Positions 10,624 to 32,517 of a stretch of DNA of 64,000 bases are shown one piece after another. The stretch lies in contig JAJCYO010000114.1 of NCBI GenBank assembly GCA_029262875.1, positions 1 to 64,000 of the forward strand, in the 5' to 3' direction. The stretch is from Flavobacteriales bacterium. GTDB lineage: Bacteria > Bacteroidota > Bacteroidia > Flavobacteriales_E > Vicingaceae. The notes under the pieces were generated by a model that saw nothing but the letters and a program-made list of their open reading frames with translations, was not told where the DNA came from and did not search any database. A program made the translations under genes and the position numbers. How positions within the stretch are numbered: the first letter of the stretch is position 1; each line of letters starts with the position of its first letter.

Positions 10624-12642
10624 ATGGCATATAAATACAAAAACTTAAACATCGAAAAATTATCAGTTATTGGAGCAGGACAAATTGGTCCGGACATCTG
10701 TTTACACTTTGCAAAAGTGTTCTGGAAAAACAATGTAGAATTCGTGATAGTTGATATATCTGAAGAAGCATTAGCAAACGCTAAAGCAAAAATTGAAAAG
10801 AAAATTAGTAGAGGTGCAGAATCAGGAGCTTTTAAACCTGAAATGGCGGAAACAATGTTGAAGAATATTACCTATACCTCTGATTATGATGCCATCAAAG
10901 GTTCTGGAATTGTTATGGAGGCAGCTACAGAAGATGGAAAAATTAAAGACATTATCTTCAAACAAGTAGAAGCATTAACAGATGATTCTTGTCTATTCTT
11001 ATCTAACTCTTCTCATATGCAACCTGAAGTAATATTCAGAAATATGGAGAATAAGAAACGATGTTTAGTAACGCATTATTTCTTTCCAGCAGAAAGAAAT
11101 CCAATAGTTGAAGTAGTTCCAGGAAAGGATACAGATACTCAAATTACCGAAGACTTAATGGGCTTTTATGAAGCAATAGGCAAAGTGCCAATAGAAGTAG
11201 GAAGCTCTTATGGTTATGCCATCGATCCAATTTTTGAAGGACTATGTGAATTAGCAATTCTTTGTTTAGAAAAAGGATATGGAACAGTTAAAGAGATTGA
11301 TAAAATGGCTCAAAAAACGCTTCGTCAAGGAGTTGGCCCGTTTACAGCGTTAAACCTTACAGGGGGTAACCCTATAACCAATCATGGATTAGAAGAAATG
11401 CGTGATACGCATATCGATTGGTTCCGTTCACCAAAAACCTTGCAAGAAGCAACCGAAAACGGAACAATGTGGGATACAGCTAAAAGAGGAGAACAAGTTG
11501 ATGTTGACCCTGAAAAAGCTGAAGTATTAAGAAAACAATTTTTAGGAGGATATTTTGCACTGTGCTGTTATATCATTGATTTAGGAATAACTAATGTGAA
11601 TGATTTAGATATGGCTACAGAAATTGCATTAGTTATTTCAGCACCATTCACTTTAATGAATAAAGTAGGAATTGATGAATCGCATAGCTTGGTAAAAGAA
11701 TGGTGCGAAGAACATAACGAATTTCCATTCCCAAAATCATTGGATCAAGCAAAAGCCGATGGTGGATGGAAAGTTTCAAGAGTAATTACTAAGAAAAAAG
11801 ACAACATTGCGGTATTAACTATCCGAAGACCAAAAGTGTTGAATGCGCTTAATTTAGGTGTGTTGACAGAATTAAAGGAAGAAATTGTAGCTGCTGAAAA
11901 TGATGCATCAGTTGATGGAATTGTCATCACTGGATTTGGAACAAAAGCGTTTGTTTCAGGAGCAGATATCAATATGCTGGCAGCCTTAAAAACACCAGAA
12001 GAAGGGTATGATAACTCACACACATTTCAAGGGTTAATTAACACAATAGAAGAATGTAAAAAACCAACCGTTTGCGCTCTAAATGGGTTCGCATTTGGAG
12101 GAGGTAATGAATTAGCAATTACTTGTACAGCAAGATTAGCTAAGAAAGGATTGCCAGTTGTGGCTTGTCAACCAGAAGTAAACCTCGGGTTTATTCCTGG
12201 TGCAGGAGGAACACAACGTTTACCACGATTAGTAGGTGTAGATATCGCTGCAGAAATTCTAAGGACAGCTCGTCCAGTTTCAGGAAAAGAAGCTGCTGAA
12301 ATAGGTTTAGTAGATAAAGAAGTAGAAGGAGACTTAGTTGAAGAAGCTGTAACATTTGCTAAACAATTAGTAAAAGGAGAAGTCCAACCACGAGACTTTA
12401 TGAAAAGTGGAAACGGTGAAGATATAATGCCAAAAGAGATCAACATCGGTCACTTGAGTAAAAAGATTGATGAAATAATGAATAAGGCAATATATGATGG
12501 TATCAAGTTACCATTAAACGAAGCACTTGAATTAGAATCAAAACTTTTCGGAGAATGCATCCTAACTGAAGATATGAGAATAGGGCTGGATAATTTCTTA
12601 GAAAACGGACCAAGAGCAAAAGCTGATTTTAAACACAGTTAA
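10624..12642 (+). CDS. 3-hydroxyacyl-CoA dehydrogenase / enoyl-CoA hydratase fusion (HAD N-terminal, crotonase C-terminal)
   Basis: LSVIGAGQIGPDICLHFA (HAD); VITGFGTKAFVSGADINML and PEVNLGFIPGAGGTQRLPRLVG (crotonase). Confidence 0.9.
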   Translation: MAYKYKNLNIEKLSVIGAGQIGPDICLHFAKVFWKNNVEFVIVDISEEALANAKAKIEKKISRGAESGAFKPEMAETMLKNITYTSDYDAIKGSGIVMEAATEDGKIKDIIFKQVEALTDDSCLFLSNSSHMQPEVIFRNMENKKRCLVTHYFFPAERNPIVEVVPGKDTDTQITEDLMGFYEAIGKVPIEVGSSYGYAIDPIFEGLCELAILCLEKGYGTVKEIDKMAQKTLRQGVGPFTALNLTGGNPITNHGLEEMRDTHIDWFRSPKTLQEATENGTMWDTAKRGEQVDVDPEKAEVLRKQFLGGYFALCCYIIDLGITNVNDLDMATEIALVISAPFTLMNKVGIDESHSLVKEWCEEHNEFPFPKSLDQAKADGGWKVSRVITKKKDNIAVLTIRRPKVLNALNLGVLTELKEEIVAAENDASVDGIVITGFGTKAFVSGADINMLAALKTPEEGYDNSHTFQGLINTIEECKKPTVCALNGFAFGGGNELAITCTARLAKKGLPVVACQPEVNLGFIPGAGGTQRLPRLVGVDIAAEILRTARPVSGKEAAEIGLVDKEVEGDLVEEAVTFAKQLVKGEVQPRDFMKSGNGEDIMPKEINIGHLSKKIDEIMNKAIYDGIKLPLNEALELESKLFGECILTEDMRIGLDNFLENGPRAKADFKHS

Positions 12643-12653
12643 TAGGCGATACA

Positions 12654-14783
12654 ATGAAGTACAAAATTGGTATTGATGTAGGAGGAACTTTTACCGACTT
12701 CTTTTTAGTAGCCGATAATGGTGACTCCATAATGCATAAAACCCTTTCAACCCCTGAAGATTCATCAGAAGGATTTATTACAGGATTAAAAGAAATTGCA
12801 GTAAAACTAAATTTATCGGAAAGTGAATTTATAGATAACATTGACACCATAGTTCATGGTACAACAGTAGCAACAAATGCATTGCTTACAATGGGCGGAG
12901 CAAAAACAGCTTTAATTACAACCAAAGGTTTTCGTGATGCGCTGGAGATGAGAAGAGGTATTCGTGAAGAACGTTATGACAATCATTACAAGAATGTTAC
13001 TCCTTTAGTTCCTCGTTATTTAAGATACACTCTTGATGAAAGAATTGATGCAGAAGGAAATGTTTTAAACGAAGTTGATTATGCAGAATTGGATGCCATT
13101 ATTTCTAAATTAAAAGAAGAAGAAGTTCAGGCAGCTGCGGTTTGTTTTATGAACTCTTATTTAAATAGTGAGAATGAAAAAGCGGCAACCGAGTATTTAA
13201 GAAAAGCATTGCCAGATACATTTATCTCAGCTTCCTATGAAGTATTGCCTTCTGTAAGGTTTTATGAGAGGGTAAGTACAACCGTTGTAAACGCTTACAT
13301 TGGTGTAGTAGTTGATTCATATTTGAAATCTTTATTAGGAAAACTGGAGAAGCTAAATTTCAATGGTAAATTGATGATTATGCAATCCAATGGAGGAGTT
13401 GTAACTCCGGAAATTGCTTGTAAAATAGCAGCAGTTGCTGTACTTTCTGGCCCTGCAGCAGCTCCAATTGCAGGAGCGTATTATTCTAATTTATTAGGAT
13501 ATGATAATTGCATAACCATGGATATGGGAGGTACCAGTTTTGATGCTTCTTTGGTCGTGAACAAACAATGTGTTACCAGTACAGATGCGGATATTGATAG
13601 ATACAGAGTTGCCTTGCCAACACTTGATATTATTACCATAGGTGCTGGAGGAGGAAGTATTGGCTGGGTAGATGAAGGTGGATTATTACAGATGGGACCA
13701 AAAAGTGCAGGATCATTACCAGGACCAATTTCTTACGATAGAGGCGGAGAAAAACCAGCTTGTACAGATGCAGATTTAATTTTGGGATACTTAGATCCAA
13801 ATTTTTTCGCAGGAGGTAAATATCAATTGAACAAAGAGAAAACGGTTGAAGTAACTGGGAAAGTATTGGGAGAACCTTTGGGCTTAAATGCTGAAGAGGC
13901 CGCTGCAGGAATGTATCGAGTTATCAATATGAATATGGCCCAAGGAGTTCGTCAGGTTTCTGTGGAACGTGGTTATGATCCAAGAGAGTTTTTAATGATT
14001 TGTGCTGGTGGAGCAGGTTCCATTCACGCAGGTGAAATTTGTCGAGAATTAGAAATCCCAATGTTTGTTGTACCAAGTGTGGCACCAATATTTTGTGCAG
14101 CAGGAATGCTATTGGGCGATTTAAAACATGATTATGTTCGATCTTATATGTCTAAACTTTCTGAGATCAACAAAGATGAATTCTTGAAGTTGTATGATGA
14201 AATGAAAGCTGAAGCAGTTCGCACATTAATTGCTGAAGGAATTACCGAAGATAAAATAGAATATGTTCCATCATTGGATTTAAGATATATAGGACAATAC
14301 CACGAAGTACCATTAGAAGTTTCAATGGATGATATTTATGACTTTGATTTGGAAACCATAAAAGAGGCTTTCCATAATGAACATAACAGACAGTTTGGAT
14401 ATGAGTTAAAAGACGAAGGAACAGAATTAGAGGTAATTAATATTCGTTTCAGAGCAATCGGAATTACCGAAAAACCACATTCATTATCAGGAAATATTGT
14501 AAAAGGAGCTGATACCTTGGAAGAAGCATTGAAAGGAAGAAGACAAGCTTATGTTCCTGAACAAGATGCCATGCAAGAAGTACCTGTTTATGATGGAGAC
14601 ATCTTAAAAAGTAACTTCAAAATAAGTGGACCGGCAATTATCGAACAAATAAATACAACCGTTTTCTTGGGCGAAAGCTACAATTGCGAGACAGGAATTG
14701 GTGGAGCATTCATAGTCTACAACAAAGGATTAATGCCTGAAGGGTTTAAGACCAAACCGGAAAATCAAACAGTGGAGGTGTAA
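12654..14783 (+). CDS. Hydantoinase A/oxoprolinase-like subunit
   Basis: IGIDVGGTFTDFFLVADNG; VHGTTVATNALL; MDMGGTSFDASLV. Confidence 0.9.
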   Translation: MKYKIGIDVGGTFTDFFLVADNGDSIMHKTLSTPEDSSEGFITGLKEIAVKLNLSESEFIDNIDTIVHGTTVATNALLTMGGAKTALITTKGFRDALEMRRGIREERYDNHYKNVTPLVPRYLRYTLDERIDAEGNVLNEVDYAELDAIISKLKEEEVQAAAVCFMNSYLNSENEKAATEYLRKALPDTFISASYEVLPSVRFYERVSTTVVNAYIGVVVDSYLKSLLGKLEKLNFNGKLMIMQSNGGVVTPEIACKIAAVAVLSGPAAAPIAGAYYSNLLGYDNCITMDMGGTSFDASLVVNKQCVTSTDADIDRYRVALPTLDIITIGAGGGSIGWVDEGGLLQMGPKSAGSLPGPISYDRGGEKPACTDADLILGYLDPNFFAGGKYQLNKEKTVEVTGKVLGEPLGLNAEEAAAGMYRVINMNMAQGVRQVSVERGYDPREFLMICAGGAGSIHAGEICRELEIPMFVVPSVAPIFCAAGMLLGDLKHDYVRSYMSKLSEINKDEFLKLYDEMKAEAVRTLIAEGITEDKIEYVPSLDLRYIGQYHEVPLEVSMDDIYDFDLETIKEAFHNEHNRQFGYELKDEGTELEVINIRFRAIGITEKPHSLSGNIVKGADTLEEALKGRRQAYVPEQDAMQEVPVYDGDILKSNFKISGPAIIEQINTTVFLGESYNCETGIGGAFIVYNKGLMPEGFKTKPENQTVEV

Positions 14784-14784
14784 T

Positions 14785-16461
14785 ATGGGAGCAATTAAGA
14801 TTGATAAAATATTATTGAGCATCTTTCAAAGAGCCTTTAAATCCATAACGGATGAAATGAGTATTTCGTTAACGAAAACTACTCGTTCACCTATTTTATG
14901 CGAAGCAAAAGATTTTGTTACAGGACTGTATGATGCGGAAGGAAATATGCTGGAACAAACGGAGAACTTACCTATTCTAAGTTTTTCGCTTGGTCCGGTT
15001 TGTAAAGTTATTTTGGATCAATACGGTGATAACATTCATGAAGGGGATGTGATTATTCATAATGATGTATTCTCTATGGGAAACCAAAATAATGATGTAG
15101 CTATTTTCAAACCGATCTTTTGCGAGGGAACCTTAATTGGTTGGTCAGCAGCCAAAGGACATCAAGCAGATATCGGAGGGGCAGTACAAGGAGGTTATAA
15201 CCCTAATGCCACAGAAGTGTGGCAAGAAGCATTGAGAATCCCAGCTGTTAAGCTGTATGAAAAAGGAAAGTTTAGAGAAGATGTTTGGAATCTAATTTTT
15301 GCGAACATTAGATTAACAATGGTTCAAGAAGATATCAAGGCGCAAATTGGAGCTTGTAGTTTGGGTGAAAGAAGGTTATATGCGTTGGTAACTAAATATG
15401 GTATTGATTGTTATGAAGCGCATAAACAGGAGCTTTTCAACAGTACAGAAACGATGATGCGTGCCGAAATTGCTTCCGTTCCTAATGGAACTTATGAAGG
15501 TAGCAGTATGGTGTATTATGATGGTAAACACCCCGGTTCTCAGTTTGAGATTAAGGCAATCATTACCGTAAAAGATGAAGACATCATTTTTGACTTTTCG
15601 AAAACATCACCCGAAACAAATGGCTTTGTGAATGGAACATATACTTCCTCTTGCTCAGCAATTACCTTAACATTTTTACAAATGGTTAACCCTAACATCC
15701 CTCACAATCAAGGTATGATTAGACCATTAACGTATATCGTTCCAGAGGGAACAATCTTAAACGCATCTTATCCAAAAGCCACAACTTTTGGCAATCATTT
15801 ATGTCCACAAGTGGCAGATTCAATATTTAAAGCACTTGGACCAGCAATGCCTAAAAGGGTAACAGCTGGTTGGAATCATTTATTATGCTCTCTGTTTACA
15901 GGGGATCACCCAAGAACCGGAGAGAAATATGTTGACATCTGCTTCATGGGATTAAAAGGCGGTTCTGGTGCAATGGAAGGAGACGATGGCTACGATCACA
16001 TTGGAATGATTGACGCATCAGGTGGGTTGTTAGACCAGGATTATGAAATGTATGAGCAACAAACCCCTCACTTAATTTTAAAACACGAATACTTAACGAA
16101 TTCTGGTGGAGCTGGAAAATGGAGAGGAGGATTAGGAATAGAAACAGTGATCAAAATGGGAGGAGATGATGCAACTATGGTGGTATTCGGTGATGGAGAT
16201 GTTGAACAAAATTATGGCCTTTTTGGAGGAAAAGGAAGTGTGTTAAATAGCATTGCTTTGACTTATCCTGATGGAAAAGAACACATCCCAATGAGTAAAG
16301 ATTTAGTAGAAGGAATTCCTTCAGGAACTGTTTACAAACAAGTTGCTGGTGGTGGTGGTGGATATGGTAAAGCAGAAGACAGAGATAGAGAGGCAGTAAA
16401 ATGGGATTTGCGAAACGAAGTAATTACAGAAGATCAAGCCAAGCAAGAATATAAACTATGA
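14785..16461 (+). CDS. Hydantoinase B/oxoprolinase-like subunit
   Basis: SLTKTTRSPILCEAKDF; GHQADIGG; YEQQTPHLILKHEYLTNSGGAGKWRGGLG. Confidence 0.9.
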   Translation: MGAIKIDKILLSIFQRAFKSITDEMSISLTKTTRSPILCEAKDFVTGLYDAEGNMLEQTENLPILSFSLGPVCKVILDQYGDNIHEGDVIIHNDVFSMGNQNNDVAIFKPIFCEGTLIGWSAAKGHQADIGGAVQGGYNPNATEVWQEALRIPAVKLYEKGKFREDVWNLIFANIRLTMVQEDIKAQIGACSLGERRLYALVTKYGIDCYEAHKQELFNSTETMMRAEIASVPNGTYEGSSMVYYDGKHPGSQFEIKAIITVKDEDIIFDFSKTSPETNGFVNGTYTSSCSAITLTFLQMVNPNIPHNQGMIRPLTYIVPEGTILNASYPKATTFGNHLCPQVADSIFKALGPAMPKRVTAGWNHLLCSLFTGDHPRTGEKYVDICFMGLKGGSGAMEGDDGYDHIGMIDASGGLLDQDYEMYEQQTPHLILKHEYLTNSGGAGKWRGGLGIETVIKMGGDDATMVVFGDGDVEQNYGLFGGKGSVLNSIALTYPDGKEHIPMSKDLVEGIPSGTVYKQVAGGGGGYGKAEDRDREAVKWDLRNEVITEDQAKQEYKL

Positions 16462-16862
16462 ACAAACACGAAATGATATTACCAGAAGGTTGGCCCATGC
16501 CAAAAGGATATTCTAACGGGATATTAGCAGCAAAAGGAAGAACACTTTTTTTAGCCGGACAAGTAGGCTGGACTGCAGAGGAAAAGTTTGCCTCTGAAAA
16601 ATTGATTCCGCAGTTTGAACAGGCATTAAAAAATATTGTTGCCATTGTAGAAAAAGCAGGAGGAAAACCTACAGACATCTGTAAAATGACCTGCTTTTGT
16701 AAAGACCGAGATCAATATTTAGCATCAAGAAGAGAATTAGGAGCCATTTGGAAAGACATTATGGGAAAACATTATCCCTGTATGAGTATGATTTTCGTGG
16801 TGGATTTATTGGATCATCCTGCATTAATAGAAATTGAAGCAATGGCTGTAATCCCAGAATAA
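16458..16862 (+). CDS. RidA/YjgF/Rid family protein
   Basis: GRTLFLAGQVGW...NIVAIVEKAGGKPTDICKMTCF; start overlaps preceding stop. Confidence 0.8.
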   Translation: MNKHEMILPEGWPMPKGYSNGILAAKGRTLFLAGQVGWTAEEKFASEKLIPQFEQALKNIVAIVEKAGGKPTDICKMTCFCKDRDQYLASRRELGAIWKDIMGKHYPCMSMIFVVDLLDHPALIEIEAMAVIPE

Positions 16863-16871
16863 TCTAATGCA

Positions 16872-16909: not shown

Positions 16910-16929
16910 TAGAAAGTGAAACAGAAAAA

Positions 16930-18057
16930 ATGGACTTTGAATTAAACGACATACAAAAATCAGTTCAACAAACGTTTAAGGACTTTGTTGATAATCGTGT
17001 GATGCAACAAGCAGCAGCCATTGATGAAAATGCTGAATTCCCAATGCAGTTGTTCAAAGAAGTTGGAGAGCTTGGCTTTTTCGGGATGCGTTATCCTGAA
17101 GAAGCTGGAGGTACCAACATGGATATTCTTTCCTATTGTTTGGCAGTGATAGAGTTATCAAGAGGATCTATGTCATTGGCAGCAGCAGTTACCATGCAAT
17201 CGTTAATGGCAACTTATTTCTTATATCGTTTTGGTGATGAAGAAGTAAGAGGACACTTTGATGCAGCAATGCGTGGAGAAGAAATAGGTGGTATTTGCAT
17301 GACAGAACCAAATGCTGGAAGTGATTTGTTTGCGATTCAAACTAACGCCTTAGTAAAAGAAGATCATTTTTTATTGAGTGGCCAAAAAACCTGGGTAACA
17401 TCGGCTCCAGTTGCTAATTTCTTTACTGTTTTAGCAAAGACTGACAATCACGATAAGCTATCGATATTCTTTGTACCAACAACTTTAGAAGGAGTTGTAG
17501 TAGGAAAGAAAATTGATAAGTTGGGAGCTTGCGGTTCAGTTACCAGCGAAGTTTCATTTGATAATGTAAAAGTTCCAAAAAACTATTTGTTAGGAGAAAT
17601 TGGAGGAGGGACTAAATGCCTCATGGAGATTTTGGCAGAAATTAGAATAATGACTGCGGCACTTTCGATAGGTGTAGCTACTGCAGCTTTTGAAGCAGCT
17701 CTTCAATATGCCAAAGAAAGAGAACAATTTGGAAAACCAATCGGAAAATTTCAGGCGATAAAAATGAAGTTCGCAGATATGGAAGTTCAGTTGCAAACAG
17801 CAAAACATTACGTGTTTTATGCAGCCTATTTGAGTGACAATGATTTACCTCGACATAAAGAATCGATGACTGCTAAATTATACGCATCCGAATGTGCAAA
17901 TAATATCTGCGATCAAGCTTCCAGAGTATTGGCATCTTATGGTTATGCCAATGAATATCCATTGCAACGCTATTTACGTGATGCCAGATTTACATTGATT
18001 GGGGGAGGAACATCAGAAATATTGAAAACAAATATTGGAAGAGAGTTAGGATTATGA
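16930..18057 (+). CDS. Acyl-CoA dehydrogenase (candidate benzylmalonyl-CoA dehydrogenase-type)
   Basis: GICMTEPNAGSDLFAIQTNA; AKEREQFGKPIGKFQAIKMKFADM; GGGTSEILKTNIGREL. Confidence 0.88.
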   Translation: MDFELNDIQKSVQQTFKDFVDNRVMQQAAAIDENAEFPMQLFKEVGELGFFGMRYPEEAGGTNMDILSYCLAVIELSRGSMSLAAAVTMQSLMATYFLYRFGDEEVRGHFDAAMRGEEIGGICMTEPNAGSDLFAIQTNALVKEDHFLLSGQKTWVTSAPVANFFTVLAKTDNHDKLSIFFVPTTLEGVVVGKKIDKLGACGSVTSEVSFDNVKVPKNYLLGEIGGGTKCLMEILAEIRIMTAALSIGVATAAFEAALQYAKEREQFGKPIGKFQAIKMKFADMEVQLQTAKHYVFYAAYLSDNDLPRHKESMTAKLYASECANNICDQASRVLASYGYANEYPLQRYLRDARFTLIGGGTSEILKTNIGRELGL

Positions 18058-19409
18058 GTTATATAAAAGAATATGGTGTTGCCGTTCCCGAGTTTAGAAT
18101 TTCGGAGAAAACCTTACATCCCAGATTAGGAAGAAAAGGCCAGCACGCTGTTTGTTATTCCGACCAGGACATTATCACATTAGCATTTGAAGCTTGTCAA
18201 AATGTATCTAAAGAGGTAGATGCAGTTTTCTTTGCAACCACAACTCCAGTTTTCAAAGACAGGTATCACGCCTCTTATGTTGCTGATTTATTGAAGCTGA
18301 AACAAGGAATCTTAGCAATGGACTTTGGGACAAGCGCTCGAGCCGGTTCAGATGCATTGTTAATGGCGGATAAGTTGATTAAGAGCGGAGAATACAAAAA
18401 TATTTTGGTTGTTGCAGCTGAGGTTTACTACCCAGAAATAGGAAAAGAAACACGTTCACCTTTTGGCCACGCAGCTGTTGCTATGGTTGTTTCTGCGGAT
18501 ACAGGAATAGCTGAAATAACCAGGACCAAATCATACTTGTCAGCCTTAGCAGAAGATTTCAACTACAAGGGAGAAACTGTTCAATACGATGCTCGTTTTG
18601 CAAGAACAGAAGGATTTAAAATGAATCTTGGTTTAGCACTAAAAGAAAGCAACATCAATACTTCAGATGTAAACCAAGTCATTCTTCATTCGCCTTATGC
18701 AAAAATTGCGTTCGGACAATTAAAGAAAGCAGGATTTGATTTAGAGAAACAGTTAATGAAAGATACTGTCACTGCTGAAATTGGTAATACAGGAGCTTGT
18801 CACGGTTTATTTTTATTAATCAATGCGATAGAAAACGGACAAGGAAACATTGCCTTGTTCGATTATTTAAATGGAACCAATGTAATTGAGATTACTAACA
18901 ATACAGTTGTAGAATTTCCATCAGTTAAAAAAGGAACACCAATAGAAGCTTATCAAGATTACCTCACATTAAGAAAACAAGGAAAGTTTACAGGGAGAGG
19001 ATATGAATCCATTGAAATGTTCTCATCAGAAATGATATCTGAAAGAGAGAAAGATGGTTTAGTTTACTTGAAAGGATACGAATGTGCTAAATGTGGAACG
19101 GTTTATTATATGAATGCAGCAAGATGCAACGCTTGTCATCATACGGAATTCAATCAAAAACAATTAGAAAAAACGGGAACAGTATACTCTGTTACTAGTG
19201 AATATTATTTCCCTAGTTCATTTGGCCCAACCAATATGGTAGTCATTGATTTAGATGAAGGAGGAAGAATAACAGTTCAGCAAACGGATGATATGTTCCC
19301 AACAGAAGAGAATACGATCAACATTGGAGACAAGGTAGAATTGGTATTTAGAAAGATGATGGAGAACGATAAGAAGCCTAATTATTTCTGGAAATGCATA
19401 AAACAATGA
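18054..19409 (+). CDS. HMG-CoA synthase-like domain fused to C-terminal DUF35 (Zn-ribbon/OB-fold)
   Basis: ILAMDFGTSARAGSDALLMADKLI; C-term YECAKCGTVYYMNAARCNACHHTEF. Confidence 0.8.
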   Translation: MSYIKEYGVAVPEFRISEKTLHPRLGRKGQHAVCYSDQDIITLAFEACQNVSKEVDAVFFATTTPVFKDRYHASYVADLLKLKQGILAMDFGTSARAGSDALLMADKLIKSGEYKNILVVAAEVYYPEIGKETRSPFGHAAVAMVVSADTGIAEITRTKSYLSALAEDFNYKGETVQYDARFARTEGFKMNLGLALKESNINTSDVNQVILHSPYAKIAFGQLKKAGFDLEKQLMKDTVTAEIGNTGACHGLFLLINAIENGQGNIALFDYLNGTNVIEITNNTVVEFPSVKKGTPIEAYQDYLTLRKQGKFTGRGYESIEMFSSEMISEREKDGLVYLKGYECAKCGTVYYMNAARCNACHHTEFNQKQLEKTGTVYSVTSEYYFPSSFGPTNMVVIDLDEGGRITVQQTDDMFPTEENTINIGDKVELVFRKMMENDKKPNYFWKCIKQ

Positions 19410-20593: not shown

Positions 20594-20598
20594 AAAAT

Positions 20599-22601: not shown

Positions 22602-22603
22602 AA

Positions 22604-23779: not shown

Positions 23780-26700
23780 TGGAGAATAAAGTTGCAGACA
23801 TATTAACTTCCTATTCCTCACCACACAAGGTGAGTGCCATTGGTAACGAAGCAGTTGCTAGAGGAGCAATAGAAGCAGGAGTTAATGGCGTATTCTCTTA
23901 TCCGGGAACACCTTCAACCGAAATTTCCGAAATATTTAACCTGGTTAGTAATTACCAAAACGACTCCAACAAGAATCCAGATGATGTCAAGAACGCCACC
24001 TATTTTGAATACAGCATCAATGAAAAAATTGCATTAGAAAAAGCAATCGCCTTTTCCATAGGCAATAAAAGTGCACTCTGTGTGATGAAGAATGTTGGGA
24101 TGAACGTAGCTTCAGATCCTTTAATGTCCATTACCTATCAAACAATAATTGCTCCTTTGGTAATTGTAGTTTGTGATGACCCTGGGTGTCACTCAAGCTC
24201 AAACGAACAGGATTCAAGGTATTGGGGAAATATGGCTTCAGTACCAGTTTTTAACCCTGCTACACCAGCAGCAGCTTACGAAATGACGAAGCAGGCATTT
24301 AAACTTTCAGCTGAATTACGTTTGCCAGTCATTGTTAGAACAACTACACGTGTTTCGCACACGAGGGGAATGTTGGAGTACAATGAAATTAATGCAGATA
24401 AAAGAGAAGCTCATTTTGATAGAATGCCAGAACACATTAATATTCCGGCACGAACAGCAACTGCACATCAAAAGCTCTTAGATAAATTGCACAGTGAAAC
24501 TGTTGATCCATTTTTTAAGAACTTTAACAAGGTACATTTTCAAGGAAAACATAAATCAACAGCCATTATTAGTAGTGGGGTTTCAACAAGTTATTTGTTA
24601 GAGGTCATTTCACGAAATGGACTAGAGGACCAATTAGAATTGCTGGACTTAGGATTAATATTTCCTTTTCCAGAAAAAGATGTGGCTGCCTTTTTACAGA
24701 AAGGGTTTGAGAAAGTATTGGTTGTAGAAGAATTAGACCCCATTATAGAAAATGCTGTCAGAAACATTGTGCAGAAACAAAACTTGACCTGCCAAATAAC
24801 AGGAAAGGAAGAAAGCCAATTAGGCAATACAGGTGAGTTTACTTTGGGACAGATTGATCAAGTTGTAGGCGATTTTTTTCAAGTAGAAACCATTGGCAAG
24901 ACTGGACTGAATGGTGTTTCAGCCTATGATGATAGCTTGCCTCCAAGACCACCAGCATTGTGTTCAGGTTGTCCGCACAGAGCAAGTTATTATGCACTAA
25001 AACTAATTGTACCAAGAGAAGATAATGATGTGATTTTATGTGGTGATATTGGGTGTTCAGGTTTGGGAGCTTTACCACCGTTAAAAATGATTGATACCAT
25101 TAACCATATGGGAATGAGTATCTCTATGGCTCAAGGATTATCAGAAGCATTAAAAAGCAAAAAAACCAAAGTAGTTGCGATGTTGGGCGATGGAACTTTT
25201 TTTCATTCAGGAATTACTTCTTTACTAAATGCAGTTTACACCAAAGCCAATATGTTGGTCATCATCTTTGACAATCGAACCATTGGCATGACTGGTCATC
25301 AAGATCATCCAGGAGCCACACATTTGGATAAATACAACGAAATACAAATTGAACCATTGGTAAAAGGGATGGGGATCAACTTTGTTGAAACGTTGATGCC
25401 TTTCGACATGAAAGACACGTACAAAAAGATTGATAAGGCAATGGCTCAGGAGGGTGTTTCCGTTCTAATTTCTAAAGCCCCTTGTGTTTTCTTACCAGAT
25501 TACAAGGAATTTACCAAACAAGATGATAAAATTATCATCAACCATGCTAAGTGCAATACTTGCCACAACCATTACGATCATGGTATTTCTTGTTCTAAAA
25601 AAGCAAGTTCAGGTTCAAACTTAACAAGAGCAATCGCAAAGATAAGGGCAACAGAAAGAGTGGATTCAAAAGATCAATCTTGTCCGGCAAACATTTGTAA
25701 CCATGGATTTTTTAACTCCATTTTAGAAAAGGATTACAAAACGGCTTTGGATATGGTTCGGGACAAATTATTGTTTTCGAGAACCTGCGGAGACATTTGT
25801 CATCGTCCTTGCGAGTTGTTTTCGAATCACGAATCAAATGCTACTATTCCTATAAAGCAATTGAAAAAATTTGTTTCGGGGATCGATGAAAATTTCAATG
25901 ATTTTTCTTCAGCATTAAACCAAATAGAACAAGCTACTCCAAAAGACAAACACATCGCAATTGTTGGTGGTGGTCCCGCAGGGCTGAGTGCTGCATATGA
26001 TTTGATTCGTGATGGATATGAAGTTACCGTTTTTGAAAAAGAGGAAGCAGCTGGTGGCCTAATTAAATACGTGATTCCTGATTTCAGAATGGACAAACAA
26101 GGATTTGATGTTGAAGTGAGTCAGTTGGCTAAAATGGGGGTTCAATTCAAATTCAATGTTTCGCTCGGAAAGGAGATGGAACTGGAAGAAATAGCCAATC
26201 AATTTGATGGAGTAATCATAGCAATTGGGTTGGGAAAATCCAATGAATTGGAAGCCGTAAGCTCGATTTCTAAGAGTAAGAAATACGACTCCATGAACTT
26301 TCTGAAAGAATACAACCTCAAAACCTTAGCGATCCAACCAGGAAGTAAAATAGTAGTGATTGGAGGTGGAAACAGTGCCATAGATGTAGCGCGCTCAGCC
26401 AAACGTTTTAATGAGGACAATGAAGTTATCTTGTCTTGTGTGGAAACAGAATCAGCAATGCCTGCTTTTACAGAAGAAGTGGAACACGCAAAAGAAGAAG
26501 GAGTAACAATTCTTGCCAACAGTTATGTTGAAGAGTGTACAGAAAAAGGAGACTTAAAAATTAAACTCCATCAATTTGATTCAAAAAAACACTTGCAAGA
26601 TATCAACTGCGATTACATTGTAGTTGCAATTGGACAACAGGGAAATGTAGAAGAATATGCAACAATTGGTGATAAAAATCTTACCAACGGTAATAAAATA

Positions 26701-27150
26701 AAAGCAGATAAATACAATGGGTTCTCCAACTATAAAAATGTGTTTGTAGCAGGTGACATCTGTGCGGACAACCACATGAGTCTCATTGGAGCAATTGGTT
26801 CAGGAAAACGTGCTGTAATTGGGATTAAACAAAAATTGGAAGGTTATAAATATTCTTACGAAGGGTTAAATGCGTTGCTCCATTTGAACCATAAAGAAAA
26901 AGAAGGAGCAATAGCAAACCCAATTGAACTGGAAGGTGACATCACTGAATTCATCAAAAACTTCAACTTATTTCAATCCTGCGAAAAGTGTAACCATTGC
27001 ATTGATAATTTGGGTTGTCCTGCCATGATAAAAGTGGATGGAAAAATAATCATTGATGAACCGAAATGTACGCAGTGTGGTTTATGTATAGATGTTTGTC
27101 CGAATGATGCCATCGCTTGGGAAAAAGAATTGGAACTGGTAAACGAATGA
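23779..27150 (+). CDS. iorA: Indolepyruvate:ferredoxin oxidoreductase alpha (TPP) with internal GltD-like FAD/NAD(P) module and C-terminal ferredoxin domain
   Basis: FSYPGTPSTEISEIF; CSGCPHRASYYAL; MLGDGTFFHSGITSLLNAVY; HIAIVGGGPAGLSAAYDLIRDGYEVTVFEKEEAAGG; CTQCGLCIDVCPNDAI. Confidence 0.87.
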   Translation: MENKVADILTSYSSPHKVSAIGNEAVARGAIEAGVNGVFSYPGTPSTEISEIFNLVSNYQNDSNKNPDDVKNATYFEYSINEKIALEKAIAFSIGNKSALCVMKNVGMNVASDPLMSITYQTIIAPLVIVVCDDPGCHSSSNEQDSRYWGNMASVPVFNPATPAAAYEMTKQAFKLSAELRLPVIVRTTTRVSHTRGMLEYNEINADKREAHFDRMPEHINIPARTATAHQKLLDKLHSETVDPFFKNFNKVHFQGKHKSTAIISSGVSTSYLLEVISRNGLEDQLELLDLGLIFPFPEKDVAAFLQKGFEKVLVVEELDPIIENAVRNIVQKQNLTCQITGKEESQLGNTGEFTLGQIDQVVGDFFQVETIGKTGLNGVSAYDDSLPPRPPALCSGCPHRASYYALKLIVPREDNDVILCGDIGCSGLGALPPLKMIDTINHMGMSISMAQGLSEALKSKKTKVVAMLGDGTFFHSGITSLLNAVYTKANMLVIIFDNRTIGMTGHQDHPGATHLDKYNEIQIEPLVKGMGINFVETLMPFDMKDTYKKIDKAMAQEGVSVLISKAPCVFLPDYKEFTKQDDKIIINHAKCNTCHNHYDHGISCSKKASSGSNLTRAIAKIRATERVDSKDQSCPANICNHGFFNSILEKDYKTALDMVRDKLLFSRTCGDICHRPCELFSNHESNATIPIKQLKKFVSGIDENFNDFSSALNQIEQATPKDKHIAIVGGGPAGLSAAYDLIRDGYEVTVFEKEEAAGGLIKYVIPDFRMDKQGFDVEVSQLAKMGVQFKFNVSLGKEMELEEIANQFDGVIIAIGLGKSNELEAVSSISKSKKYDSMNFLKEYNLKTLAIQPGSKIVVIGGGNSAIDVARSAKRFNEDNEVILSCVETESAMPAFTEEVEHAKEEGVTILANSYVEECTEKGDLKIKLHQFDSKKHLQDINCDYIVVAIGQQGNVEEYATIGDKNLTNGNKIKADKYNGFSNYKNVFVAGDICADNHMSLIGAIGSGKRAVIGIKQKLEGYKYSYEGLNALLHLNHKEKEGAIANPIELEGDITEFIKNFNLFQSCEKCNHCIDNLGCPAMIKVDGKIIIDEPKCTQCGLCIDVCPNDAIAWEKELELVNE

Positions 27151-27746
27151 AAGAAACAACCAAAATATTAGTAGCAGGGGTAGGAGGACAGGGAGTTGTT
27201 TTTTTAACCAACTTGTTAGTGAAAGCTGCTTTGTTAGCCGATATTCCCGTTGCCACAAGTGAGATTCACGGTTTAGCACAAAGAGGTGGCTCAGTAACAG
27301 CAGGGATTACGTTAGGAGAACACACGTACGGATTTTTAGAAAAAGGCGGTGTTGATATTTTATTTGGATTAGAACCTTTAGAGGCACAGCGCTGCGCATC
27401 CTATTTAAATAAAAATAGTATTGCGGTTATTGATGAAAACAGAATTCTGCCCTATTCGGTTAATTCAGGAAATGCAGCTTATCCAGACATTAAAATGTTT
27501 GTTGATTACTTGAAAAAGAACATTAACAAAGTAATTTATAATGTAGAAAGTCCAGAAGGGATTAATTCTGTTCAGCGTAATTTATATGTGTTGGGAAGAA
27601 CCTGCCATGAAGTTGATTTTCCAATTCAATCCGAATTCATAAAAAAAGCAATTGCTGAAATTGTAATTAAAGATCCTGAAGAGAAATGTTTAGCAGCTTT
27701 CATGTTAGGACTAACTAAAGAAGAAATAATAGTTGAATCAAAATAA
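27147..27746 (+). CDS. iorB: Indolepyruvate oxidoreductase beta (gamma-type) subunit
   Basis: KILVAGVGGQGVVFLTNLLVKAALLADIPVATSEIHGLAQRGGSV; ATGA overlap with iorA. Confidence 0.9.
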   Translation: MKETTKILVAGVGGQGVVFLTNLLVKAALLADIPVATSEIHGLAQRGGSVTAGITLGEHTYGFLEKGGVDILFGLEPLEAQRCASYLNKNSIAVIDENRILPYSVNSGNAAYPDIKMFVDYLKKNINKVIYNVESPEGINSVQRNLYVLGRTCHEVDFPIQSEFIKKAIAEIVIKDPEEKCLAAFMLGLTKEEIIVESK

Positions 27747-27748
27747 AA

Positions 27749-28222
27749 ATGATGCAAATAACATTCAAAATAAACGGAGAGTCAATTACCCAAGAGGTAA
27801 AACCAGCTTTGTTGTTAATTGATTTGATAAGAGATCACCTTAAGTTGAAGGGAACAAAACCAGGATGCTTAGAAGGTGAGTGCGGAGCCTGTTCTGTTAT
27901 TGTTGATGGAGAAGCCATTAATTCGTGCATGTACTTGGCCATTAACGTAAATGGCAAAGAGGTAATCACCATTGAAGGATTAGGAGATCATGAAAACCCT
28001 TTAGATAATGTGCAAGAAAAGATGGTAGAACATGGTGGGGTTCAATGTGGATTTTGTACACCTGGAATGGTAATGACAACAAAAGCATACAGTGATAAAT
28101 GTAAGAAAAAAGGCATAACACCAACCCGAGAAGAAGTAAAGAAAAGCTTAGAAGGAAACCTATGCAGGTGTACGGGTTACGCTAAAATAATTGATGCTGC
28201 TGAAGCAGTTTACGAGAATTAA
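27749..28222 (+). CDS. Xanthine-oxidase-family [2Fe-2S] subunit
   Basis: GCLEGECGACSVIVDGEAINSC; CGFCTPGMVMTTKAY; LEGNLCRCTGYAKI. Confidence 0.93.
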   Translation: MMQITFKINGESITQEVKPALLLIDLIRDHLKLKGTKPGCLEGECGACSVIVDGEAINSCMYLAINVNGKEVITIEGLGDHENPLDNVQEKMVEHGGVQCGFCTPGMVMTTKAYSDKCKKKGITPTREEVKKSLEGNLCRCTGYAKIIDAAEAVYEN

Positions 28223-28234
28223 AAGTTCAGAATA

Positions 28235-30553
28235 ATGGAAAAAGAACTAAAAGTAATAGGGAAATCGCATCGTAAATTAGATGGGAAAGAACGTGTTTCA
28301 GGTAAAGCTGTTTACGGCCACGATATTGAGCTACCGAATATGTTACACGGTTCAATATTAAGAACTGCTCACCCTTGTGCAGAAATAATTTCTATTGATA
28401 CGTCAAAAGCTGAAGCATTAGAAGGTGTAGAATGTGTGATTACCGCTGATGATGATGTGTATGATGTAAACAACATCAGCTATAAAAGAGATCATCCTAT
28501 TTTAAAGAAAGGAACAGTAAATTGTAACCGTGATGAGATTGCTGCAGTTGCCGCTCGAACCAAAGAGATTGCTGATAAAGCCCTTCAATTAATTGAAGTG
28601 GAATACAACGTGAAAAAAGGAATTTATGACCCTGTTGAAGCGTTGAAAAATGAAGCCCCACAGATTAATGAATTTGGAAAAGGAAAGGAGCAGTTTGGAA
28701 ATAAAAACATGGCTGAATCTTTCCATTATGAACATGGTAACTTAGAAGAACAAAAAGCAAAAAGCAAGGTCATTGTTAAGAGAACCTACGAATTACCTCG
28801 TGTTACGCATGCTTGTATGGCAACCAGTAACATTACTGCTGAGTTCAGTCCATTTGACGGCAGGTTAACATTGTGGTCATCTACACAAGTTCCATTCTTG
28901 TATCAACGAGATATAGCACATGCATTGAAGATGGAACCTTCAAAAATCAGAATTATTCAGCCAATAATTGGCGGAGGGTTTGGAAGTAAATTAGACATGC
29001 ATCCGTTTGAACCCATTTGTGTTTTGTTGGCAAAAAAGAGTGGCAAACCCGTTCAAATTTTATTCTCTCGAGAAGAAGAATTTGTATTGTCTCCTACCCG
29101 CCAACCGATGGTGATTGATTTAACCACTGGTTGTGATGAAAATGGAAAATTCACATTTAGAGAAGTAGAAATCATTAAAGACAATGGAGCGTACACTTCA
29201 TGGGGGGCAACAACTCCATTTGTGATGATGCAATCCTATTCTTCATTGTATCAAGTTCCGGCCTGTAAGTTTGATTCACATGCAGTTTATACCAATAATC
29301 CATTTGCTGGATCTTTTAGAGGATATGGAAATCCTCAGGCAACCTTTTCCATTGAAACAAACATCGATTTGATGGCAGAAGAATTGGGTATGGATCAATC
29401 GGAAATAAGGTTAATTAATGCAAATTACAAAGGAGAGGTAACAGGACAAGGTTTGCATTTTAAAACCTGTGGTGCAATTCCAGCTTTAGAAAAAGTAATT
29501 GATGAAAGTGATTTTGAAAAAGCAAATGCTGAACCAAAGGGAGATAGATACAAAAAAGGAATAGGATTAGGCTCGATGTTACATGTAGGTGGTGGAGCAA
29601 AGATTTACCGCTCAGATGGATGTGGAACTGTATTAAAACTGGATGATTATGGTTACCTAACCATCATAACAGGATCCAATGAAATTGGACAAGGTTCTGA
29701 AACAGTACTGGCTATGATTGCCATGGAAGAGCTGGGAATAGCAGAAGAGAAAATTAAAGTCATCAATACCGATACAGATGTAAAACCTTGGGATGTTGGC
29801 GTTCACGCTTCCAGAACAAGCTTTGTGGCAGGTAATTCTTTGTTAGGAGCCATCAAACTAATGAAAGAAAAATTGAATAAAAAAGCAGTAGCCCTATTGG
29901 ATGTGGTAACCGATGATTGGGAATATGCTGATGGAAAGATGACGTTCAATGAATTTGAAATTAAGATAGATAAAGTGGCAAGAGAAATGCACTTTGGTAC
30001 ACCTCATGAATTATGTACGGTCAATTATTTTTATGAACCACCAAGTAAATTTCAGGACAAGGACTTTAAAGGAGATGTCTCTGGAAACTATGCTTTTGCA
30101 TCACAAGCGATAGAAGTAGAAGTGGATACCGTTACAGGAAATGTTGAGGTATTGAATGTTCATGTTTCACAAGATGTTGGAAGAGTGCTTAACCCAATTG
30201 GATTACAAGGACAGATGGAAGGTGGTTTAGCCACTGGAATTGGTTATGCATTAACAGAGGAAATGATTTATGAAAATGGAGAATTGAAAAACCCAAGTTT
30301 CCATGGATACAAATTGTTAACGGCTACCGATATGCCTCCAGTTCATTTTTACCCAATAGAAACCTATGATGAGGCAGGGCCTTATGGATCAAAAGGGGCA
30401 GGAGAAGCACCACTAATTCCTACTGCTGCGGCCATAGCCAATGCTGTTTCTAATGCACTTGGAGTTACCTTTTATTCCTTGCCAATTACGGCAGAAAAAG
30501 TGTTGAGAGCATTGAAAGAACAAAAAGAAAAGAATAAAGAGGTTTTAGTTTAA
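28235..30553 (+). CDS. Xanthine-oxidase-family molybdopterin subunit
   Basis: IGGGFGSKLDMHPFEPI; AGSFRGYGNPQATFSIE; GSKGAGEAPLIPTAAAIANA. Confidence 0.92.
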   Translation: MEKELKVIGKSHRKLDGKERVSGKAVYGHDIELPNMLHGSILRTAHPCAEIISIDTSKAEALEGVECVITADDDVYDVNNISYKRDHPILKKGTVNCNRDEIAAVAARTKEIADKALQLIEVEYNVKKGIYDPVEALKNEAPQINEFGKGKEQFGNKNMAESFHYEHGNLEEQKAKSKVIVKRTYELPRVTHACMATSNITAEFSPFDGRLTLWSSTQVPFLYQRDIAHALKMEPSKIRIIQPIIGGGFGSKLDMHPFEPICVLLAKKSGKPVQILFSREEEFVLSPTRQPMVIDLTTGCDENGKFTFREVEIIKDNGAYTSWGATTPFVMMQSYSSLYQVPACKFDSHAVYTNNPFAGSFRGYGNPQATFSIETNIDLMAEELGMDQSEIRLINANYKGEVTGQGLHFKTCGAIPALEKVIDESDFEKANAEPKGDRYKKGIGLGSMLHVGGGAKIYRSDGCGTVLKLDDYGYLTIITGSNEIGQGSETVLAMIAMEELGIAEEKIKVINTDTDVKPWDVGVHASRTSFVAGNSLLGAIKLMKEKLNKKAVALLDVVTDDWEYADGKMTFNEFEIKIDKVAREMHFGTPHELCTVNYFYEPPSKFQDKDFKGDVSGNYAFASQAIEVEVDTVTGNVEVLNVHVSQDVGRVLNPIGLQGQMEGGLATGIGYALTEEMIYENGELKNPSFHGYKLLTATDMPPVHFYPIETYDEAGPYGSKGAGEAPLIPTAAAIANAVSNALGVTFYSLPITAEKVLRALKEQKEKNKEVLV

Positions 30554-30617
30554 TACTGACAACTGAATACTGACAACCGAATACTGACAACTGAATACTG
30601 ACAACTAAATACTAATA
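30553..30617. repeat. 14-nt tandem repeat (about 4.5 copies, ATACTGACAACTGA)
   Basis: atactgacaactga/atactgacaaccga/atactgacaactga/atactgacaactaa/atactaataag. Confidence 0.9.
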
Positions 30618-30620
30618 AGA

Positions 30621-31484
30621 ATGGATTTCGAAGTAATAAATACAACAACGTCCGATGAGTTATTGAAAGCAATTGCGGCTAACCAAAACAGTAACTTCAG
30701 AATTGGAGCAGGATTTACCGATTTAATCAATCAGTTAAAAAAGCAAAATACGGAGGAGCTGACCATCATCAACATTGCTCAGCTAAAAGATGAAGCTTAT
30801 ACACAGATAGTTGAAGAAGCCGATGGTCTAAGAATAGGAACATTAGCTACCGCATCAGATATTGTAGACAATAATTTCATTAGAGAAAACTATCCAGTAT
30901 TGCATCAAGCCGCAAGTAAGTTGGCTTGTACACAAATTAGAAATGTAGCCACATTGGGCGGAAACATTTGTAATGTTTCCCCTTCAGGAGATATGACGGC
31001 TTCATTAATTGCCCTAAAGGCCACTTGCCATATTGTAGATTGCAATGGTGGTGAAAGAGCTGAGTTACTCAGTGACTTTATCATTGGATTGAAGAAAACG
31101 ACTTTGAAAAAAAACGAAATCATCAAGAATATAACCATTCCCATGAATGATCATCATAACATTATATCAGGTTATGAAAAAGTAGGGTCCAGAAAATCGA
31201 TGGAAATAGCCATTGTTTCATTGGGTTATCATATTCAAATGAACAATGATGGAACCATTACAGATGCTGGTGTTTCTTGTGGAGCGGTTGCTCCTACTAT
31301 CCCGTTTGCAACATCTGCTTGTGATTTCCTTTTAGGAAAAGATATTCAGGATCTAACTGAAGCTGATAAAGAAGAGTTCGCCAACAAAGTAATGGAGTAT
31401 GCTTCACCCATATCAGATGTAAGGGCTTCTGAATGGTATAGAAAAGAGGTGTTATTTAACTTGAGCCAAACTATTTTTAGTTAA
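30621..31484 (+). CDS. Xanthine-oxidase-family FAD subunit (no 4Fe-4S insertion)
   Basis: FRIGAGFTDLINQLKKQ; IRNVATLGGNICNVSPSGD. Confidence 0.9.
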   Translation: MDFEVINTTTSDELLKAIAANQNSNFRIGAGFTDLINQLKKQNTEELTIINIAQLKDEAYTQIVEEADGLRIGTLATASDIVDNNFIRENYPVLHQAASKLACTQIRNVATLGGNICNVSPSGDMTASLIALKATCHIVDCNGGERAELLSDFIIGLKKTTLKKNEIIKNITIPMNDHHNIISGYEKVGSRKSMEIAIVSLGYHIQMNNDGTITDAGVSCGAVAPTIPFATSACDFLLGKDIQDLTEADKEEFANKVMEYASPISDVRASEWYRKEVLFNLSQTIFS

Positions 31485-31485
31485 A

Positions 31486-32517
31486 ATGGACCAAAAAGTA
31501 GTAGAAGATATTATTAAATTGTCTCAGAACGAGAACAATTTTGGACCATCACCAATGGCGTTGAAGGCGGTGATGGAGAATTGTGATCAGATGAACCGTT
31601 ATCCTGAACCACATTCCAAAACCCTAAAGGAAGAATTCTCGGATCATTTAGGAGTACTCTCAGAAAATATTTTTGTGTGTGCAGGATTGGTAGAATCTTT
31701 AGACATTATGATTCGAAACTTTATTGCCAAAGGAGAGAACCTGATTATACCAGAAATCACTTTTGTTGCTTATAAATTGTTGGCGAAAGTTTTCGATGTA
31801 GAAACCCGATTTTCTGAAATGAAGGATTACGGGATTGATATAGATTCAATTATTGAGAATTGCGATGAGAAAACAAAACTCATCATCATAGCTAACCCCA
31901 ATAACCCCACAGGTACAATTGTTCCTGAAACCGATTTGATTCGATTGATGGAAACAGTTCCTAAAAGCACTTATGTAGTTGCTGATGAGGCTTATTGTGA
32001 ATATGTGAATCGTGTAGATTTCCCAAATACAATGAAGCTATTGCAACGCTACCCAAATTTAATAATGCTAAGAACATTCTCTAAAATATATGGCCTGGCC
32101 GGGTTGAGAATAGGCTTTGCTGTTGCCCACGAAGATATTATTGAAAAATTGGAATATTTTCAGGCACCATTTACAGTGAGCCAGGTGGCTTCAATTGCAG
32201 CAGCAGCGGCAATAAAAGACCATAAATTTATCGAGAAGAGTTTTAAAAATAATTTAGAAGCAAAAAGTGTATTAGAAAGAGAATTGTCGCACATGGGTTA
32301 CAAAGTAGTGCCTTCTCAAAGTAATTTCATCTACATTCATTTTAAAACACAAGAAGAACGAGATGGTGTTTGTAACCTACTTTCTGATAAAAATGTGTTG
32401 GTCAGAAAAACAGATCATTTTGGAGACGATAAAGCCTTTAGAATTACAGTGCCAAGACCTCAGAATTGCCAAAAGGTAATAGCTGCTTTAAGTCATTATC
32501 AGTCTGTCCAAAGCTGA
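31486..32517 (+). CDS. HisC-like class I/II aminotransferase (candidate aromatic amino acid aminotransferase)
   Basis: LSQNENNFGPSPMALKAV; IIANPNNPTGTIVP; RTFSKIYGLAGLRIGFAVA. Confidence 0.85.
   Translation: MDQKVVEDIIKLSQNENNFGPSPMALKAVMENCDQMNRYPEPHSKTLKEEFSDHLGVLSENIFVCAGLVESLDIMIRNFIAKGENLIIPEITFVAYKLLAKVFDVETRFSEMKDYGIDIDSIIENCDEKTKLIIIANPNNPTGTIVPETDLIRLMETVPKSTYVVADEAYCEYVNRVDFPNTMKLLQRYPNLIMLRTFSKIYGLAGLRIGFAVAHEDIIEKLEYFQAPFTVSQVASIAAAAAIKDHKFIEKSFKNNLEAKSVLERELSHMGYKVVPSQSNFIYIHFKTQEERDGVCNLLSDKNVLVRKTDHFGDDKAFRITVPRPQNCQKVIAALSHYQSVQS

Follow-up and report, generated by a model that had tools for sequence, protein, structure and literature searches.

The stretch of DNA analyzed here, referred to as the window, comprises positions 1 to 64,000 of contig JAJCYO010000114.1 from a Flavobacteriales bacterium (assembly GCA_029262875.1), and its central feature is a gene module at 10624–32517 that resembles the iaa operons of indoleacetate degradation. 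The module consists of 16 co-oriented genes on the plus strand, with intergenic distances of −34 to +67 bases. All gene families named for it in an initial annotation of this DNA are present; a Rid-family gene (16458–16862) and a GltD-like extension of the IorA protein were not listed there. The module is embedded in a wider, almost gap-free series of plus-strand genes (795–40419) that exceeds it on both sides, in which the largest gap from bcrC to oah (795–36033) is 177 bases and overlaps between neighboring genes are common. The same gene order was found in independent Bacteroidota metagenome-assembled genomes (loci L024, L027, and L033), so the module is no assembly accident. Its GC content of 0.372 equals that of the flank and therefore does not suggest a very recent transfer. 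Gene families were called with Pfam profiles and with TIGR (NCBIfam) models, the latter using curated bit-score cut-offs.

The first gene of the module encodes a 3-hydroxyacyl-CoA dehydrogenase/enoyl-CoA hydratase fusion (10624–12642; Pfam), with a predicted role in the β-oxidation of 2-aminocinnamoyl-CoA. It is followed by the A and B subunits of a hydantoinase/oxoprolinase, a predicted ring-opening hydrolase (12654–14783, PF01968; 14785–16461, PF02538), the Rid-family gene (PF01042), and a predicted IaaF-type (2-aminobenzyl)malonyl-CoA dehydrogenase (16930–18057), assigned by its clade and its GGG motif. An HMGCS-like domain without the catalytic Cys, fused to DUF35 and resembling PhlA/BbsA (18054–19409), is the partner of a thiolase of the SCP2/BbsB/ACAT type (19394–20593) predicted to perform 2-aminobenzoylacetyl-CoA thiolysis. 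Then come a B12-binding mutase subunit of the IaaGH type (20599–20982; over the cut-off of TIGR00640), a methylmalonyl-CoA mutase (MCM)-type catalytic subunit of the phenylsuccinyl/benzylmalonyl-CoA mutase type (20979–22601), and an IaaL-like family III CoA-transferase (22604–23779; PF02515). The alpha subunit of an indolepyruvate oxidoreductase (IorA, 23779–27150; TIGR03336, 598 bits, cut-off 651) carries at its C-terminus an extra GltD-like NAD(P)H oxidoreductase domain with flavin and 4Fe-4S motifs (Pyr_redox_2, Fer4), and the beta subunit (IorB, 27117–27746; TIGR03334, 129 bits, cut-off 206) follows. A molybdenum (Mo) hydroxylase is encoded by a small [2Fe-2S] subunit (27749–28222; Fer2_2), a large subunit that is a predicted indoleacetyl-CoA 2-hydroxylase (28235–30553), and an FAD (medium) subunit (30621–31484; PF00941) without the Cys-rich insertion of the HcrB-like protein of the window. 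A HisC-like aminotransferase, the predicted tryptophan transaminase (31486–32517; TIGR01141, 303 bits, cut-off 277), completes the module.

The module is flanked by genes of a class I benzoyl-CoA pathway (bcrCBAD, had, oah, dch, and korAB), which the initial annotation missed in ending the module at 2-aminobenzoyl-CoA. Upstream lie the benzoyl-CoA reductase subunit genes bcrC (795–1976; TIGR02263, 426 bits, cut-off 421) and bcrB (2004–3296; TIGR02260, 655 bits, cut-off 487), a bcrA-like ATPase/activase subunit gene (3324–4742; TIGR02259, 437 bits, under the cut-off of 578), and the ATPase/activase subunit gene bcrD (4770–5627; TIGR02261, 315 bits, cut-off 313). The bcrA-like gene has BcrA as its best family and occupies the operon position, and the four bcrCBAD subunits are thus accounted for. 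The bcr operon further includes an AMP-forming acyl-CoA ligase (5638–7395; Pfam AMP-binding; conserved in L205/L206), an HGD-D family protein that is HadB/BcrB-like (7382–8599; PF06050), and a PanE-like dehydrogenase fused to an HgdC/BadF-type activase (8599–10446; TIGR00745 and TIGR00241, both over cut-off). Downstream lie a second thiolase (32586–33851; TIGR01930, over cut-off), the 6-hydroxycyclohex-1-ene-1-carbonyl-CoA dehydrogenase gene had (33805–34920; TIGR03201, 458 bits, cut-off 339), the ring-opening 6-oxocyclohex-1-ene-1-carbonyl-CoA hydratase gene oah (34933–36033; TIGR03200, 587 bits, cut-off 464), a dch-like dienoyl-CoA hydratase gene (36523–37296; best match TIGR03189, 211 bits, under the cut-off of 293), and a korAB-like 2-oxoacid:ferredoxin oxidoreductase (37564–40419; TIGR03710 and TIGR02177, over cut-offs), a possible electron supply for the benzoyl-CoA reductase. 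The genes bcrCB, bcrD, had, and oah are contiguous with the module on the same strand. With bcr upstream and had, oah, and dch downstream, one run would therefore span the route from tryptophan to the ring-opened product.

The dehydrogenase provides the clearest link to the iaa systems. IaaF is a decarboxylating benzylmalonyl-CoA dehydrogenase; members of its clade sit in iaa clusters and have GGG in place of the YEG (or variant) of other acyl-CoA dehydrogenases (ACADs) (PMC8360864). The motif region of the window dehydrogenase is RFTLIGGGTSEIL, with GGG present, and GGG occurs in all iaa-clade dehydrogenases aligned with a complete C-terminus. A quick tree search without bootstrap, with support from the Shimodaira–Hasegawa-like approximate likelihood ratio test (SH-aLRT), placed 36 iaa-linked sequences on one side of a branch and 19 other ACADs on the other (SH-aLRT 98), and the group of the window dehydrogenase was sister to the dehydrogenases of Pseudomonadota operons. 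In the Pseudomonadota loci, the order is HydA-HydB-IaaF-MutS-MutL, in several followed by the Mo genes and the CoA-transferase, and several have an AMP ligase upstream; as this order corresponds to the known iaa layout, these loci were taken as the reference iaa operons. IaaF of Aromatoleum aromaticum has the ends MDFDLTD and IAKEVSS, translated from the primers in PMC8360864; the L220 protein begins MDFDLTE and the L230 protein ends IAKEVSS. A search of a plasmid collection for a reference iaa operon found none, and the plasmid matches of Massilia (L215) and Azoarcus KH32C (L216) are other clusters.

The remaining core genes gave the same result. The window mutase, encoded as two adjacent subunits near the IaaF-type gene, fell within the iaa mutase clade as opposed to the MCM-type mutases (SH-aLRT 100), and the DGHDxG motif of the B12-binding subunit was invariant (25/25 sequences). 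The Mo large subunit formed a clade with the enzymes of the Pseudomonadota iaa operons (SH-aLRT 100), outside which the Mo enzymes of the Desulfobacterota iaa loci lie; its identity to the former was 46–49%, against at most 35% to plasmid homologs. Orthology of hydantoinase B and the CoA-transferase was judged by identity gaps: hydantoinase B is 64–68% identical to the Pseudomonadota iaa proteins and at most 36% to those on plasmids, and the CoA-transferase, with Asp173 invariant in 25 of 25 sequences, is 47–53% identical to the Pseudomonadota and 36–40% to the Desulfobacterota proteins, against at most 32% for other plasmid homologs. For hydantoinase A the gap is small (48–51% versus at most 44% for the best plasmid match). 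The initial annotation had proposed an iaa-type pathway, and this holds: the dehydrogenase, mutase, and Mo hydroxylase lie in supported clades with iaa operon genes, and these clades and the two identity gaps show no grouping of the families with unrelated pathways. Judged by sequence, the genes from the Mo hydroxylase to IaaF are orthologous to those of iaa operons.

The entry into the pathway differs from that of an indoleacetate operon. No IaaB-like indoleacetate-CoA ligase gene was found within 10624–32517; the nearest ligase (5638–7395) is the member of the bcr operon. The iaa pathway works on CoA esters from indoleacetyl-CoA onward (PMC8360864), and IorAB can therefore feed it without a ligase, which corrects the initial annotation. 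IorAB is placed inside the iaa run, between the CoA-transferase and the Mo genes. Fourteen Bacteroidota, Neomarinimicrobiota, and Krumholzibacteria loci either extend for 6 kb or more downstream or have a 2-oxoacid oxidoreductase gene within a shorter distance; 13 of them carry this enzyme, the exception being L070. Three forms occur: IorA extended by an NAD(P)H-type domain and accompanied by IorB (L024, L027–L029, L033, and L041); IorA and IorB fused into one protein of about 840 aa (L032, L035–L037, and L039; family checked on L035 and L039); and a KorA/KorB-like pair (L030, L031, and L034; family checked on L030). Apparently, in Bacteroidota and their relatives, the ligase of the known pathway has been replaced by an enzyme that makes the acyl-CoA directly from an arylpyruvate, which indicates tryptophan rather than auxin. 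The aminotransferase was found in the same place in two relatives (L233 and L234) and was not seen in a third (L232). Given IorAB and the aminotransferase, tryptophan is probably the simplest feedstock.

Alternatively, external indoleacetate could feed the pathway, with the upstream AMP-forming ligase acting as the indoleacetate-CoA ligase and IorAB serving other 2-oxoacids. Characterized iaa operons do begin at indoleacetate via IaaB (PMC8360864). However, the ligase also belongs to the bcr operon in two genomes without an IaaF ortholog (G059 and G295), and both the position of IorAB within the iaa run and the nearly constant presence of a 2-oxoacid oxidoreductase in clusters of Bacteroidota and relatives speak against this explanation, which we regard as improbable. 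Thus, of the tryptophan/auxin catabolism suggested in the initial annotation, the tryptophan part is upheld by IorAB in the run, and the auxin part is weaker, as no iaaB-like ligase accompanies the module. From indoleacetyl-CoA on, the module is predicted to work as the iaa pathway; it is a variant and not the indoleacetate operon itself.

We therefore favor tryptophan as the substrate, and very probably a facultative Flavobacteriales-type bacterium oxidizes it by an iaa-type pathway joined to the class I benzoyl-CoA pathway. The genes and their order are observed; the substrate, the anaerobic use, the order of use, and every activity are predicted from them. Tryptophan would be transaminated to indolepyruvate, which IorAB and the NAD(P)H-type module fused to it would convert to indoleacetyl-CoA, making a CoA ligase unnecessary. 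The Mo hydroxylase would form the 2-oxoindole, and the ATP-dependent hydantoinase AB would open the lactam to (2-aminophenyl)succinyl-CoA. The family III CoA-transferase would shift CoA to the other carboxyl, the B12 mutase would yield (2-aminobenzyl)malonyl-CoA, and the IaaF-type enzyme would produce 2-aminocinnamoyl-CoA by oxidation and decarboxylation. 2-Aminobenzoyl-CoA and acetyl-CoA would then arise through the hydratase/dehydrogenase fusion, together with the thiolase and its pseudo-HMGCS/DUF35 partner. In the thiolase, Cys92 and His are invariant; across 11 sequences the HMGCS-like part of its partner has no conserved Cys, and the DUF35 part has four conserved Zn-type Cys residues, so we infer that the partner is a scaffold for 2-aminobenzoylacetyl-CoA thiolysis. 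The last stage would be loss of the amino group and reduction of the ring by BcrCBAD, with Dch, Had, and Oah then opening it. 2-Aminobenzoyl-CoA would thereby enter the benzoyl-CoA pathway whose genes flank the module.

Each iaa-carrying genome seems to be paired with some ring reductase. BcrB of the window is 88–94% identical to that of 10 other iaa-carrying Bacteroidota and 70% identical to that of an 11th. In a set of 24 genomes with IaaF, one of them the window's, no gene of the aldehyde ferredoxin oxidoreductase (AFOR) family accompanies a BcrB ortholog (66–94%); AFOR genes, consistent with BamB, occur in most BcrB-less Bacteroidota and in Dethiosulfatarculus. The class I-like sets of Neomarinimicrobiota and Kapaibacterium are divergent, and every iaa-carrying genome examined had a candidate of one of three types (class I, AFOR, or divergent class I/bzd-like). 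Where class I Bcr is missing, HGD-D with its activase is weakened as a candidate for the sole ring reductase, since most such genomes carry BamB-sized AFOR-family genes and a divergent bcr/bzd-like set of four genes is present in Kapaibacterium (G315). In four Neomarinimicrobiota loci (L149, L150, L151, and L212), a divergent bcr operon, 32–36% identical to BcrB/BcrC, is accompanied by a ligase, HGD-D, PanE/activase, and had/oah/dch. Within this phylum, the divergent operon is present twice in genome G316. In iaa-carrying Bacteroidota without class I bcr (L153 and L155–L158), PanE, had, oah, dch, HGD-D, and the activase form one cluster, in some cases preceded by a large protein that by eye resembles an ADP-forming acyl-CoA synthetase.

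Candidates for removal of the amino group are BcrCBAD itself, a second Mo enzyme, and the HGD-D/PanE/activase set (7382–10446). The Mo enzyme, encoded on the minus strand at 57976–61685, resembles 4-hydroxybenzoyl-CoA reductase (821 bits to TIGR03194), with fused Fe-S and Mo parts and a Cys-rich, probably 4Fe-4S, insertion in its FAD subunit; it may handle tyrosine/4-hydroxybenzoate or deaminate aminobenzoyl-CoA. An enzyme of this type has been suggested for 4-aminobenzoyl-CoA in Desulfatiglans (PMC7500099). The HGD-D set is a candidate reductive deaminase or (R)-2-hydroxyacyl-CoA dehydratase. HGD-D orthologs occur in 21 of the 23 other IaaF genomes, and in Desulfobacterota they co-occur with IaaF (11/12 versus 28/235; Fisher p 4e-9, uncorrected for relatedness). 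The set is also found in bcr operons of the IaaF-less Bacteroidota G059 and G295, and in an IaaF-less Desulfobacterota genome (L165) it lies beside IorAB, PanE, an activase, and ligases. An iaa-specific deaminase was therefore not concluded, and the co-occurrence may mirror aromatic degraders in general. The Rid protein was also considered. Its gene is present in most Bacteroidota clusters and was not detected in those of Desulfobacterota or Pseudomonadota; the protein scores under the curated cut-off and has Arg28, Arg84 (12/13), and Arg91 as invariant residues. Aligned by eye, it reads PCMSM at the place of PARSC in RidA, whose catalytic Arg in E. coli is Arg105. Since the catalytic Arg seems absent, Rid is an unlikely imine deaminase.

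A broader reading joins two proposals: that the iaa core of Bacteroidota, Neomarinimicrobiota, and Krumholzibacteriota is a dedicated tryptophan-mineralizing pathway leading from indolepyruvate straight to indoleacetyl-CoA, NAD(P)-coupled in the lineage of the window, and that HGD-D, the activase, and PanE form an ATP-driven amino-removing enzyme. Support is good for the first proposal. The second draws on the co-occurrence with IaaF, which the IaaF-less genomes weaken, and as a whole the combination is improbable.

The nearest relatives are Flavobacteriales metagenome-assembled genomes, all of them Bacteroidota, and a type IX secretion system (T9SS) sorting domain is present at 49485–50504, in agreement with the Bacteroidota origin proposed in the initial annotation. 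Among 297 genomes of the phylum, one other carries a close relative of the window dehydrogenase (66%; next best 41%). A scan of named genomes yielded 23 loci clearly of iaa type (45–95% identity, iaa neighbors) in Bacteroidota, Neomarinimicrobiota, Krumholzibacteriia, Kapaibacterium, and Dethiosulfatarculus; 11 further Desulfobacterota loci are at least 57% identical to the Dethiosulfatarculus dehydrogenase, and six lie in Pseudomonadota. In the literature searched, which left most subscription journals outside its scope, we found no description of an iaa pathway in Bacteroidota, as the initial annotation had surmised, and likewise none of class I benzoyl-CoA degradation in this phylum. A Krumholzibacteriia genome (G314) has an iaa module with the fused IorA (L041) and a bcrCBAD and dch/oah/had cluster (L214). 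For Krumholzibacteriota, PMC10936416 reports class I bcr and proposes a range of aromatics, to which these clusters would add tryptophan.

Several observations weigh against the pathway proposed here. Neither IorA nor IorB reaches its curated cut-off for specificity toward indolepyruvate, which leaves room for another arylpyruvate and makes the exact one a matter of prediction; the best model for the aminotransferase is HisC, and it was not seen in one of the three relatives checked. Orthology was judged against Pseudomonadota operons of the same layout, with A. aromaticum IaaF compared through its primer-encoded ends. No electron-transfer flavoprotein (ETF) gene adjoins the window IaaF gene, in contrast to sulfate reducers, and no dedicated deaminase was identified for the amino group of 2-aminobenzoyl-CoA. 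Respiration was checked through one protein family, and another contig of the genome encodes a haem-copper subunit resembling that of cytochrome oxidases, so the organism need not be a strict anaerobe. In the window, a NorB-like haem-copper protein with an adjacent small cytochrome c (61908–63670, minus strand) has nitric oxide reductases as its best solved relatives, with weak scores, and a facultative, nitrogen-oxide-using lifestyle is plausible.

The same chemistry might instead act on another aryl substrate, for example a phenyl or hydroxyphenyl analogue with arylsuccinyl- and arylmalonyl-CoA as intermediates. IaaF accepts benzylmalonyl-CoA without the amino group (PMC8360864), and the 4-hydroxybenzoyl-CoA reductase-like enzyme is nearby; yet the hydantoinase-type ATP hydrolase and the Mo hydroxylase suit hydroxylation and opening of an N-heterocycle, and both are kept with the iaa core in Pseudomonadota, making such a substrate highly unlikely. 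A chance neighborhood of unrelated hydantoin, propionate, xanthine, and ketone modules, conceivable insofar as every family is broad and the NCBIfam names are general, is contradicted by the trees, the motif, synteny across several phyla, and the near-zero intergenic gaps, and is hardly credible. We thus retain tryptophan oxidation by the iaa-type route.

Outside the gene series, an AAA ATPase with an OLD-like TOPRIM domain, followed by a DUF2130 protein (43231–46728), looks like an OLD-type nuclease and is perhaps defence-related.

According to PMC8360864, the organisms associated with indole-ring breakdown by the iaa route under anaerobic or low-oxygen conditions are denitrifying Pseudomonadota, sulfate reducers, and a few archaea. 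If our interpretation is true, a clustered route is complete in Bacteroidota and partial in Neomarinimicrobiota, Krumholzibacteriota, and Kapaibacteria, and protein-derived aromatic carbon can be assigned to uncultured bacteria. A GGG-type IaaF gene adjoining the iaa mutase and an Ior-type gene would serve as genome-readable markers. In the work consulted, the enzyme for amino loss from aminobenzoyl-CoA has only been guessed at, for the 4-amino isomer (PMC7500099), and the window offers a compact gene set for testing this step on 2-aminobenzoyl-CoA.

The comparison with known systems defines the position of the window module. Class I benzoyl-CoA pathways of the Thauera type comprise bcrCBAD-dch-had-oah-korAB. 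In the window, bcrC, bcrB, bcrD, had, and oah likewise pass the curated cut-offs, whereas bcrA and dch fall under theirs and the operon contains the extra HGD-D/PanE/activase set. The pairing of a thiolase with a DUF35 protein is shared with benzoylsuccinyl-CoA thiolase (BbsAB), archaeal ACAT/HMGCS/DUF35, and PhlABC, but the window DUF35 is fused to an HMGCS-like domain without a conserved Cys. The iaa clusters of sulfate reducers, reported in Desulfatiglans, Desulfocarbo, and NaphS2 (PMC8360864), share orthologs of IaaF, the mutase, the hydantoinase, and the CoA-transferase, as seen in Dethiosulfatarculus (L045; HydB 65%, MutL 53%); they differ in ETF-like genes beside IaaF, ABC-transporter genes, another Mo enzyme, and an ACAD identity of 43–48%. 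The iaa operon of A. aromaticum EbN1 and A. evansii KB740 (PMC8360864, PMC9613470) has in common with the module the hydantoinase pair, the GGG-type IaaF, the two-subunit B12 mutase, the family III CoA-transferase, and the Mo hydroxylase, in an order matched in related Pseudomonadota operons. In contrast, the window module is without an iaaB-like ligase; has an aminotransferase, IorAB with a fused NAD(P)H-type domain, an inserted Rid gene, and the pseudo-HMGCS/DUF35-thiolase pair; and lies in a Bacteroidota host, contiguous with bcr, had, oah, and dch. It is thus a complete-looking variant of the iaa pathway, probably fed by tryptophan and connected to benzoyl-CoA degradation of class I, and not a new kind of chemistry.

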